Shown in pieces: positions 7,034-30,853 of a DNA stretch of 30,853 nucleotides. The position numbers and the translations under genes were made by a program. Source of the stretch: a virus; the IMG/VR virus record IMGVR_UViG_3300042391_000534, positions 1 to 30,853 of that record; one strand, 5' to 3'. Numbering within the stretch: position 1 is the stretch's first letter; every line of letters starts with the position of its first letter. Below the pieces are notes generated by a model. That model was given only the letters and a program-made list of their open reading frames with translations. It made no database searches and had not been told where the DNA came from.

Positions 7034-7051
7034 GCCCGAAAAATGTCTAAA

Positions 7052-7112
7052 AAAGTTTGCAAAATAAGTTGACACGCGCCCTGAAATTGCTACAATTATA
7101 TATATAGGGCAA
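7052..7112 (+). promoter_or_regulatory. Plus-strand promoter A (twin of the one at 25811)
   Basis: TTGACA (7069-7074), a 16-base spacer and TACAAT (7091-7096) preceded by TG one base upstream (extended -10) make a strong vegetative-type promoter. It is followed by tatatatatagggcaa, identical to the sequence after the promoter at 25828-25855. The upstream A-rich stretch (aaaagtttgcaaa, 7052-7064) is also nearly identical in the two copies, with one mismatch. It points against the surrounding minus-strand operons and drives only the small gene at 7143. Confidence 0.8.
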
Positions 7113-7142
7113 GGCAGAAGCCCTCCAACGAAAGGGAACAAA

Positions 7143-7301
7143 ATGGAAATCTGGTTCACAACCGCTAACAATGGCAAAGCCTCCGCTTGGTACTTCAGCA
7201 TGAACGCTCGTCGCTCGTTTCGCCTACCAATGCAATACGCTGAGTTTTTGATTGCAACCGGCGAGGCCGTACAGATCGCAAAGCCTTTCCACCGCAACTA
7301 A
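7143..7301 (+). CDS. Small plus-strand gene of unknown function (52 aa)
   Basis: A 52-residue basic protein beginning MEIWFTTANNGKASAWYF and ending PFHRN, with no signal peptide, membrane segment or recognised motif. It is supported as a gene by its setting: a strong promoter about 50 bases upstream, AAAGGG six bases before the ATG, and a hairpin terminator starting 13 bases after the TAA. It is the only gene of its transcript and lies opposite to the flanking capsid and glycosyltransferase genes. The layout resembles single-gene accessory units (morons) or early host-takeover genes. I do not recognise the family. Confidence 0.75.
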   Translation: MEIWFTTANNGKASAWYFSMNARRSFRLPMQYAEFLIATGEAVQIAKPFHRN

Positions 7302-7313
7302 AACGCAGACAAA

Positions 7314-7350
7314 GAAATCCCCCGGCGAACCTACAACGCCGGGGGATTTC
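7314..7350. terminator. Bidirectional hairpin terminator after capsid gene and plus-strand gene
   Basis: A perfect 14-base-pair stem, gaaatcccccggcg (7314-7327) with cgccgggggatttc (7337-7350), and a nine-base loop. Because the outer stem is AAAT/ATTT on both sides, RNA from either strand ends in a short U run. It should stop plus-strand transcript A before it reaches the capsid gene and stop or weaken minus-strand readthrough from the capsid gene, whose TAA/TGA region ends at 7367. Terminating between capsid and downstream tail genes would let capsid protein be made in excess. Confidence 0.85.
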
Positions 7351-25678: not shown

Positions 25679-25707
25679 AGACTACACACCAGGCATGACA
25701 ACGTCAA
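25679..25707 (-). promoter_or_regulatory. Predicted leftward early promoter
   Basis: On the minus strand TTGACG (25707-25702), exactly 17 bases, then TAGTCT (25684-25679). It is placed just after a terminator and about 27 bases before the first early gene, giving a leader of about 20 bases. The -10 matches the consensus at only three positions, which is common for actinobacterial SigA promoters. Confidence 0.5.
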
Positions 25708-25708
25708 C

Positions 25709-25750
25709 AAAAAGAAGAGGCCCCGAGTCGAAGAGGCAGACGACTCGGGG
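25709..25750 (-). terminator. Hairpin terminator upstream of the early promoter
   Basis: A perfect ten-base-pair stem, ccccgagtcg (25721-25730) with cgactcgggg (25741-25750), and a ten-base loop. On the minus strand the stem is followed by cctcttcttttt, so it should stop minus-strand RNA coming from the lysis genes before the early promoter. Confidence 0.75.
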
Positions 25751-25810
25751 CAGCGCAGTGGGGGAAAGGAATACCCGGCGCACTCAAAGCATAGCAAAAA
25801 AAACTTTGAG

Positions 25811-25871
25811 AAAAGTTGGCAAATGAGTTGACACGGTGGTGCAAATCACTAAACTTATATATATAGGGCAA
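25811..25871 (+). promoter_or_regulatory. Plus-strand promoter B (twin of the one at 7052)
   Basis: TTGACA (25828-25833), 16 bases and TAAACT (25850-25855), then tatatatatagggcaa, identical to promoter A. The region before the -35 (aaaagttggcaaatgag, 25811-25827) matches that of promoter A with few changes. The two spacers differ, so identity is concentrated in the promoter elements and start region, as expected for a shared regulated promoter. Confidence 0.8.
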
Positions 25872-25892
25872 ACAAAAGAAAAGGAAACCAAA

Positions 25893-26114
25893 ATGACAAC
25901 TACAACCAAAACCCTCTACATCAGTTTCAACGAGGGCAACGTTACTTGCTACGATCACGCCGGTGTAACGCTCAAAGAATCCATCAAAGACCGTGGCCCG
26001 CTTAGCGAGTGGTTTAAGGGCATCGAAAGCGTTTACTTCGTGGCACAGGACATCGACTACAAGCACTTTGCGGAGAACGACATGCAACTCGTTTGCGAGT
26101 CTTGCAACAAATAA
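25893..26114 (+). CDS. Small plus-strand gene of unknown function (73 aa)
   Basis: A 73-residue acidic protein, MTTTTKTLYISFNEGNVTCY onward, ending MQLVCESCNK. It has C19 and a terminal C68-x2-C71 pair, so a metal site shared between chains is conceivable. ATG 25893 is used because AAAGGAAA precedes it and the longer frame would begin inside the promoter. It is transcribed alone between promoter B and a hairpin terminator. It shares no clear similarity with the 52-residue product of the other plus-strand unit. I do not recognise it. Confidence 0.75.
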   Translation: MTTTTKTLYISFNEGNVTCYDHAGVTLKESIKDRGPLSEWFKGIESVYFVAQDIDYKHFAENDMQLVCESCNK

Positions 26115-26128
26115 CCGCCAAAACTAAG

Positions 26129-26159
26129 AAATCCCCCCGAGTCAATATCGGGGGGATTT
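26129..26159. terminator. Bidirectional hairpin terminator between plus-strand gene and lysis genes
   Basis: A perfect 12-base-pair stem, aaatccccccga (26129-26140) with tcggggggattt (26148-26159), and a seven-base loop, followed by ttct on the plus strand and by tttcttag on the minus strand. It is the counterpart of the hairpin at 7314-7350 (same aaatcccc...ggggattt design) and should end both the plus-strand transcript and the late minus-strand transcript after the lysis genes. Confidence 0.85.
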
Positions 26160-26174
26160 TCTTATAAGCGCACT

Positions 26175-26255
26175 TTACTGACAGGAATCACAGTTGTTCT
26201 TGTCGGCAGGATCAACAGGGCACGCAACCCCGCCGACCATGTCAACCTCATTCAC
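26175..26255 (-). CDS. Tiny cysteine-containing peptide after the holin gene (26 aa)
   Basis: A 26-residue product, (M)NEVDMVGGVACPVDPADK then NNCDSCQ, with three Cys (C12, C22, C25; a CxxC pair at the end). GTG 26255 overlaps the holin TGA (GTGA), the junction type used across the genome, and the stop lies 15 bases before the terminator stem. The low-complexity-free, Cys/Asp-rich content is unlike a chance frame. It is the last gene of the late transcript. Role unknown. Confidence 0.5.
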   Translation of the reverse strand: MNEVDMVGGVACPVDPADKNNCDSCQ

Positions 26256-26869: not shown

Positions 26870-27766
26870 CTAGAAACTTCCTGCGTTGAGTGCGGCCTGT
26901 AATGCTTTAGTGGTTTTCGGCCCCCAGTCACCATCCTGAGCAACGCCCAGACGAGCCTGAAGTGCACGAACAGTTTGCGGGCCAATAACACCATCAGCCC
27001 GTACACCAAGTTTACCCTGAAGAGCCTTTTTGCTTACCGGCCCAAACACACCATCAGCAGAAACGCCCAACACTTTTTGTAACGCCTTATACGTTTGCGG
27101 GCCAAGCACACCGTCAACAGTCAAAGCGCCGGGTGCGGGTGTCGGTTTCGGGCCAGCCTGAAGCACAGCCATAGTTTTCGGGCCAACAATTCCATCGGCC
27201 ACCAGCGCGTTTTTCTTCTGAAAGTCCACAATGGCTTTCATCGTCACCGGGCCAACAATACCGTCCACCGTGAGCTTATATCCAAACGTGTTCAGAAGTC
27301 CCTGAATTTGTGCGCCGTTAGCGTTGAAAGACGATCCGCCACCGCTGTAAGCAAGATGCCACGGCTCAGAACCAATCGTAAAGATAAGCCCCAACGATTC
27401 TGCGATAGCACGCACCGTACCGTTGTTGCGACCAGGCTCAATGTCGGCAGCCATACCCCAACCATGCACCGACGTGCCAGGCCAACCAGCAGCCGGCGTT
27501 TCACCACGCTGATAGCGTCCCCACTGAAACCACTGGGTCGAACGGCCCGAAGCGGTCTGCGACTCGTTCCGCACATTCATGTCGCCACGCACACCGAGAG
27601 GCCGGTAGCCTTCATTGATCTTGATGGTGACACCCTGCTCGGCGGCACGATTCAACAAATCCTGCATCACCGTAGCGGTACGAGGCTCAAAAGACTCACC
27701 CGCCACTTTACGCATCGCGCTTTCAGGTATATCACCGTTGGCGTAACCGCCCCAAGCATTAGACAT
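26870..27766 (-). CDS. Endolysin: M15 peptidase with peptidoglycan-binding repeats
   Basis: A 298-residue lysin. Residues 1-150 are an M15/VanY-type zinc peptidase: NEGYRP (51-56), SVHGWGMAADIE (99-110; H101 and D108 as ligands) and EPWHLAY (134-140; E134, H137), so it should cut peptide stems or cross-links of the cell wall. Residues 150-295 hold six DGxxGPxT units (DG at 168, 191, 218, 238, 258, 278), the peptidoglycan-binding_1 pattern; the last four are exactly 20 residues apart. There is no signal peptide, so export depends on the holin. It starts 11 bases after the upstream stop. Confidence 0.92.
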   Translation of the reverse strand: MSNAWGGYANGDIPESAMRKVAGESFEPRTATVMQDLLNRAAEQGVTIKINEGYRPLGVRGDMNVRNESQTASGRSTQWFQWGRYQRGETPAAGWPGTSVHGWGMAADIEPGRNNGTVRAIAESLGLIFTIGSEPWHLAYSGGGSSFNANGAQIQGLLNTFGYKLTVDGIVGPVTMKAIVDFQKKNALVADGIVGPKTMAVLQAGPKPTPAPGALTVDGVLGPQTYKALQKVLGVSADGVFGPVSKKALQGKLGVRADGVIGPQTVRALQARLGVAQDGDWGPKTTKALQAALNAGSF

Positions 27767-30152: not shown

Positions 30153-30853
30153 CTAAAATCCCAACACGTTTGAGTCAAGGATACCAAAACTGGCATCATC
30201 CAAAATTAAGAAAGCGTAAGACTCCAACGCCGACAAGTTCAACGTAATGTCATAACTATCAGGCCGCGCCTCATGCCCCACACCAATAATCTGCGCGTAA
30301 CGCACAATCGCCGAACCCACACCGTTAGGGGTAAACGTAACCTCGATAGGGTCGCCCAACTCCAAACCCAACACGGTAGCCAAATCCACACCCTCAAGGC
30401 CATCCAACGAAATCTGCAACGCCTCAAAACGATACTCAGGATCACCATACAAACTCACCCACCACTCAGCCAAACCTGAAGTCTGCGACACATCAGAAAT
30501 GAGCGTGTCAATGGTCTGCCCTGAAATGCCATACGTTGTCTGCGAAGAAAGATTGTTGGCAACAGAACTACCCACCAGGGGAGACGTCACAGTTACCTGG
30601 TTGTACAACAAATCTGTGCCGTACTGAATGTTCGTACCCGTATACGCGATACCAGTGCCATCATCCGTAAACGCCGGAGAACCCTCAATGGTGTAAATGT
30701 TCGCCCGGTCAATGAACGTAACATAACCATTCTTCGACATAAAAAACTGCCCCTGCTCAGACGCAGTAACCAAGTTCAAATAATCCAACGCCGACTGAGT
30801 ACCGTCACGCACATCCGCGCCCACCGTATTCGTCCCCGCATCCAAACTACGCG
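30153..30853 (-). CDS. Minor tail protein, C-terminal part (gene begins at 669)
   Basis: This is the C-terminal 185 codons, plus the duplicated overlap, of the 407-residue minor tail protein that begins at GTG 669; codons at 30708-30853 repeat those at 1-146. The part contains a strand-rich region (YVTFIDRANIYTIEGSP, NQVTVTSPLVGS) and a C-terminal baseplate-like end (DPIEVTFTPNGVGSAIVRYA, then YDITLNLSALESYAFLILDD). An apparent start near 30845 is only the window edge. It ends nine bases before the next tail gene. Confidence 0.82.
   Translation of the reverse strand, partial: RSLDAGTNTVGADVRDGTQSALDYLNLVTASEQGQFFMSKNGYVTFIDRANIYTIEGSPAFTDDGTGIAYTGTNIQYGTDLLYNQVTVTSPLVGSSVANNLSSQTTYGISGQTIDTLISDVSQTSGLAEWWVSLYGDPEYRFEALQISLDGLEGVDLATVLGLELGDPIEVTFTPNGVGSAIVRYAQIIGVGHEARPDSYDITLNLSALESYAFLILDDASFGILDSNVLGF
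30708..30853. repeat. Terminal direct repeat (right copy)
   Basis: Matches 1-146 except at 30834 (c for t) and 30837 (c for a). The codon pair reads GCG GGG here and GCT GGA in the left copy, Ala-Gly in both. Two silent third-position differences point to two related strains in the source population rather than to random error. Confidence 0.9.

Follow-up and report, generated by a model that had tools for sequence, protein, structure and literature searches.

The window, meaning here the whole stretch of 30,853 nucleotides that was analysed (IMG/VR record IMGVR_UViG_3300042391_000534), carries a small plus-strand transcription unit, unit B, at positions 25798–26159. It opens with an A-rich, UP-element-like stretch (25798–25827, +) and continues with a predicted promoter, TTGACA-N16-TAAACT (25828–25855, +), with its −35 element at 25828–25833 and its −10 element at 25850–25855. 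This is followed by a conserved start region, TATATATATAGGGCAA (25856–25871, +), recognised by motif scan and by comparison of units, a ribosome site, AAAGGA (25880–25885, +), and cargo gene B (25893–26114, +), an ORF for a 73-aa protein ending in VCESCNK. The unit closes with a terminator, AAATCCCCCC/GGGGGGATTT (26129–26159), identified from the sequence and by a terminator scan and predicted to be usable on both strands. A sequence-only reading of this locus had started the unit about 13 nt further downstream; the control region begins near 25798. On the opposite strand lies a putative early promoter of the minus-strand operon, TTGACG-N17-TAGTCT (25679–25707, −), which lacks the cassette motif. 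A terminator-like hairpin upstream of this operon (25720–25751, −) was found in the sequence and by scan and is kept in relatives.

A second unit, unit A (7039–7349), has the same design. Its promoter and start region (7069–7112, +) consist of TTGACA (7069–7074), a 16-nt spacer, TACAAT (7091–7096) and TATATATATAGGGCAA (7097–7112). The start region is followed by a leader hairpin of the form GGGC-loop-GCCC (7107–7123, +), by cargo gene A (7143–7301, +), which encodes 52 aa and has a homolog in one relative (L003), and by terminator A (7315–7349). The GGGC..GCCC leader, overlooked in the sequence-only reading, is absent from unit B of the window, where folding predicts no leader hairpin; unit B has lost it.

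As its first and last 146 bases are 99% identical, the window represents a closed phage genome of about 30.7 kb. That the end repeats (1–146 and 30708–30853) match at 99% and not 100% may reflect a mixture of strains in the assembly. The source is a phage of aquatic actinobacteria. All recognised genes are on the minus strand; units A and B are both antisense to the rest of the genome. Profile searches identified capsid, portal, large terminase, tape measure, DnaB-like helicase, WhiB and lysin genes, together with a RecE-like/YqaJ exonuclease, a replication initiator and, by a weak match, a holin. Among isolated phages the closest is phiPsal1, which infects Pontimonas salivibrio (Microbacteriaceae); its terminase is 46% identical and its glycosyltransferase 55%.

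Control regions of the two units

The control regions of A and B are clearly related. TTGACA-N15-18-TANANT sites occur twice in the window, where 0.11 would be expected, and these two are promoters A and B; no shuffled sequence had two. The sequence TATATATATAGGGCA is found only at the two units, even with three mismatches allowed. In local alignment, the control region of B (25798–25871) has its best match in unit A with a score of 35, against 15 for the best match elsewhere in the window and a maximum of 16 across 60 dinucleotide shuffles. The A-rich stretch is common to both units over 38 nt at 74% identity (repeat D12), and both terminators carry AAGAAATCCCCC...GGGGGATTT, with arms AAATCCCCC/GGGGGATTT in each. 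This base-by-base comparison bears out the sequence-only reading, according to which promoter B repeats the −35 element, the 16-nt spacing, the A-rich upstream stretch and the 16 bases after the −10 element of promoter A, with a terminator of the same build. The gene bodies were rightly called unrelated, since the 73-aa gene B, with CESC near its end, cannot be aligned with the 52-aa gene A. Common regulation of the two units would be consistent with this shared control. The suggested control by the phage WhiB protein is unsupported: no link between WhiB and the units was found.

Across 14 distinct units of the TTGACA type, the average is 1.98 bits for the 15 columns that follow the −10 element, 14 of these columns being invariant, against 0.97 bits for the 16-nt spacer; the start-region figure is inflated by units that were fetched with the motif itself. 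When occupied A slots of close relatives were instead located through glycosyltransferase homology, without use of the motif, all 16 of them carried ATATAGGG and the leader, units with different −35 and −10 elements among them. A TA run was considered as an operator and discarded, its symmetry being broken in units with TACACATATAGGGC or TAGATATATAGGGC; the constraint on the start region is better placed on ATATAGGGC.

The leader is usually GGGC-loop-GCCC followed by AAAGGA. Ten of the 11 leaders tested are predicted to form a 5' hairpin of modest energy, always at the same place, unit B of the window being the exception; the z-scores are singly weak (−0.2 to −1.9). Because the stem is nearly invariant, covariation cannot lend it support. 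One contig, L011, has the leader in front of an internal gene as well, one that lacks a promoter.

A search of 84,980 bacterial and archaeal genomes gave two matches to the start motif, one in a Clostridia and one in a Spirochaetes assembly. This is about the level of chance, and the motif is thus not a common host promoter feature. It is present in IMG/VR relatives of the window. Of the two outcomes that the sequence-only reading had named as fatal to its proposal, wide occurrence in unrelated host promoters and absence from all relatives, neither was observed. A nucleotide search of isolated phages with unit B gave no match. Matches to a relaxed promoter pattern in AT-rich unrelated phages were excluded, as they lacked the flanking genes and the leader, and matches to the leader pattern inside coding sequence (L089–L091, L093, L094) were taken as chance. 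A separate observation concerns an unrelated AT-rich phage contig, IMGVR_UViG_3300018080_000071 (L019, L023), in which three TTGACTTATATATG...TATATATAGGGCAGA promoters precede three different small genes, a comparable architecture elsewhere.

Slots and cargo in related phages

Relatives were gathered from IMG/VR by means of the motif, the slot-A glycosyltransferase, the lysin and the exonuclease that adjoins slot B. Slot A is part of the late block, with the capsid and glycosyltransferase genes as its neighbours, and slot B separates the lysis genes from the early recombination (exonuclease) operon. The proposal that the units sit at both operon borders therefore holds for B, at the late/early border, but not for A. 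Close relatives (glycosyltransferase 82–100% identical) have slot A with or without a cassette, whereas distant ones (54–57%) mostly have just a terminator there, as does phiPsal1, with a terminator-like sequence only. Slot A is empty in L042 and slot B in L082, L098 and L099, L042 and L082 being the same contig. Since relatives without a cassette retain a terminator there beside the capsid gene, terminator A is part of the phage backbone. Two distant relatives (L067, L079) have an occupied slot A without the motif; in L079 it holds two small plus-strand genes with their own TTGACA-type promoter.

Two side observations concern slot A. In L052, L053, L057 and L078, a different promoter-like site, TTGCCA-N17-TATCCT, immediately precedes the terminator, and there is no ORF; this site could be the source of a short RNA or the remnant of a lost cassette. 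L052 and L053 are identical in the glycosyltransferase gene and slot A, while parts of their capsid genes differ by up to 20% per 100 nt, reflecting either a mosaic border near the slot or an assembly chimera.

The cargo varies behind this control. The 15 distinct occupied A units hold nine gene sets, each made up of one to three small genes (46–92 aa), and slot B has five genes among six distinct sequences. Promoter, leader and terminator arm are retained while the gene between the same neighbours differs. Different second genes follow the MFFK gene at a shared TAATG junction, and the MNIS gene occurs first, second or third in the cassette. A 66-aa gene (MFTT/MFTS) is found in slot A of L009 and in slot B of L008 and L037. 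Its coding sequence is 94–97% identical between slots, about as similar as the two B copies are to each other (196 of 201 bases); the outer flanks of each copy match its own slot. By comparison, the glycosyltransferase genes of the A contigs are at most 91.6% identical when identical contig pairs are left out, which argues that the MFTT/MFTS gene moved between slots after the backbones had parted. This sharing involves one gene family on three contigs, and chimeric assembly is a risk with contigs from metagenomes. That the control is conserved while the cargo can be exchanged, as the sequence-only reading had it, is well supported. Its idea of a mobile unit is unsupported: it is the cargo that moves, between fixed slots in which no element ends, target duplication or mobility gene was seen.

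Little can be said of the cargo proteins from homology. Searches of Pfam, PHROGs, NCBIfam, PADLOC and PDB sequences gave no usable match and assigned no family or fold, and no cargo matches known anti-defence or takeover proteins. For protein B, isolated phages and the same databases likewise yielded nothing usable; a match to rpiB (E 0.05) fell far below the cut-off. One slot-B gene has a sub-threshold match to PtuB (E 0.021) that was taken as chance, and the remaining cargo has sub-threshold matches only. Outside the window, gene B is known from a single contig, where it is identical. When three further cargo genes were compared with isolated phages, cargo A alone had a distant relative, in Gordonia phage Puppers, where it sits in a run of small unknown genes. 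An AlphaFold model of cargo B alone was poor (pLDDT 51) and was set aside. A nine-member cargo family was modelled as four helices (pLDDT 69), for which Foldseek returned no significant match.

Origin, role and precedents of the units

The reading preferred here, and in our judgement a probable one, is that A and B are two fixed moron-type slots whose small early anti-host or anti-defence genes are exchanged when phages recombine within the flanks that they share. Both architecture and exchange are well supported. Each unit would consist of a near-consensus sigma-70-type promoter, the start region, usually a small 5' hairpin that may have a role of its own, a ribosome site, one to three genes and a terminator. 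We infer that the promoter is active and that host RNA polymerase would read it at once, without help from the phage, so that the small proteins would most likely be made early. The start is expected at TATAGGGC on the plus strand, and the terminators would insulate the unit from opposing late transcripts. The probable route of exchange is homologous recombination, perhaps with the help of the RecE-like exonuclease encoded beside slot B, at the two shared stretches that bracket the cargo: promoter and leader at one end, the AAGAAATCCCCC terminator arm at the other. That the cargo comprises host-takeover or anti-defence proteins under strong turnover is suggested by the turnover itself, the small size and the promoter type, by analogy with archaeal viruses. 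A more far-reaching proposition, which is possible but decidedly tentative, is that the slots form a dedicated cassette-exchange arrangement in which the promoter with its leader and the terminator arm serve as paired recombination borders. Single small genes would pass through them between slots and between phages without an integrase, each coming under the same strong early control on arrival, and the cargo would represent a large, unexplored pool of anti-defence genes in phages of aquatic actinobacteria that the borders make recognisable.

Other readings fit some of the same observations. The genes might be morons with other purposes, such as superinfection exclusion, capsid decoration or host physiology, expressed throughout infection or late. 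Slot A does adjoin the capsid gene, no cargo has been assigned to a family, and the slot-B position in phiPsal1 is taken by a small antisense gene for an HTH protein, annotated as cI/cro-like (L096 18564–18767, −). However, the promoters are near consensus with no phage factor in sight, the cargo is small and turns over fast, as suits early takeover or anti-defence genes, and phiPsal1 was called lytic by its describers, who found no signs of integration (PMC6106888); this reading is rather unlikely. Simple duplication, with one unit copied once and its gene bodies diverged or replaced long ago without continuing exchange, would explain why one genome has two copies under the same control. It is improbable in view of the cargo recently shared between slots, of the nine gene sets that close relatives have at A, of the changes in gene order and of the slots that stand empty.

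Two insertions of a transposable or homing element could leave similar ends around different genes at both places. Yet the same two sites are used in all relatives, the units contain no recombinase, terminator A belongs to the backbone, and neither the units nor the empty site showed defined ends, a clean target duplication or a mobility gene, which makes such an element very improbable. It is equally hard to credit that the units are RNA genes or that chance ORFs lie between promoter and terminator. The cargo is short and without families, and the ORF-less sites of the four contigs described above keep both promoter-like site and terminator; but the units have no match in Rfam, the ribosome sites are consistent across units, and each of the 12 cargo pairs compared has a dN far lower than its dS, which points to purifying selection and argues that the cargo consists of real genes. 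Transposition, duplication alone and chance ORFs were rejected on this evidence.

Precedents make the description of the locus as an undescribed system too strong. A moron is an ORF that has its own promoter and terminator and has been inserted where relatives have two contiguous genes (PMC3029335). Both units appear to have ORFs between a promoter and a terminator of their own, and the empty slots A and B and the distant relatives show the neighbours without the insertion. Like phage morons, these are single small genes with their own signals that are present or absent between fixed neighbours; what sets the present units apart is that the gene changes within a constant slot and behind constant control, that two slots share one design and that one gene occurs in both. 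Units A and B are filed as morons, as a variant with an exchanged gene. In archaeal viruses such as SIRV2, a shared early regulatory sequence marks anti-defence genes (PMC11065993). Similarly, two small unrelated single genes of the window appear to stand behind nearly the same strong promoter. The SIRV2-type genes have an archaeal promoter and lie mainly at the genome ends, with function shown for some, whereas units A and B have a bacterial-type promoter, occupy two distant slots and are known from sequence alone.

The start-associated sequences of Cluster K mycobacteriophages are 13-nt GGGATAGGAGCCC elements with a Shine-Dalgarno sequence, 3–7 nt from the start (PMC3203893). The leader, GGGCAGGCAGCCC, is likewise a GGG...CCC sequence before the starts of unrelated actinophage genes, but its sequence is another one and it appears to lie at the 5' end of the transcript, tied to the promoter and upstream of a separate AAAGGA, and so differs from the Cluster K arrangement. 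The accessory hotspots of P2 and P4 (PMC9122126) are also fixed loci with content that turns over between relatives; their content is anti-phage defence systems, in temperate phages and satellites, whereas each slot described here takes up to three genes, all very small, under conserved control.

If the preferred reading is true, the two borders provide a simple sequence key to small, fast-swapped accessory genes of uncultured phages of aquatic actinobacteria, and the genes so recognised, whose proteins match nothing, would probably serve anti-defence or takeover. The units would also allow phage mosaicism to be tested where the conserved borders are short and the promoter stays in place, with one gene present in two slots.

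Two minor features may be added. The lysin gene (26870–27766, −) encodes a run of related C-terminal repeats, seen as direct repeats in the DNA (repeat D2). A minus-strand ORF of 26 codons (26175–26255), with a GTG start, ends in CDSCQ and overlaps the end of the holin-like gene; in the relatives and phiPsal1, this position likewise has readable short ORFs with CxSCQ as their last residues.
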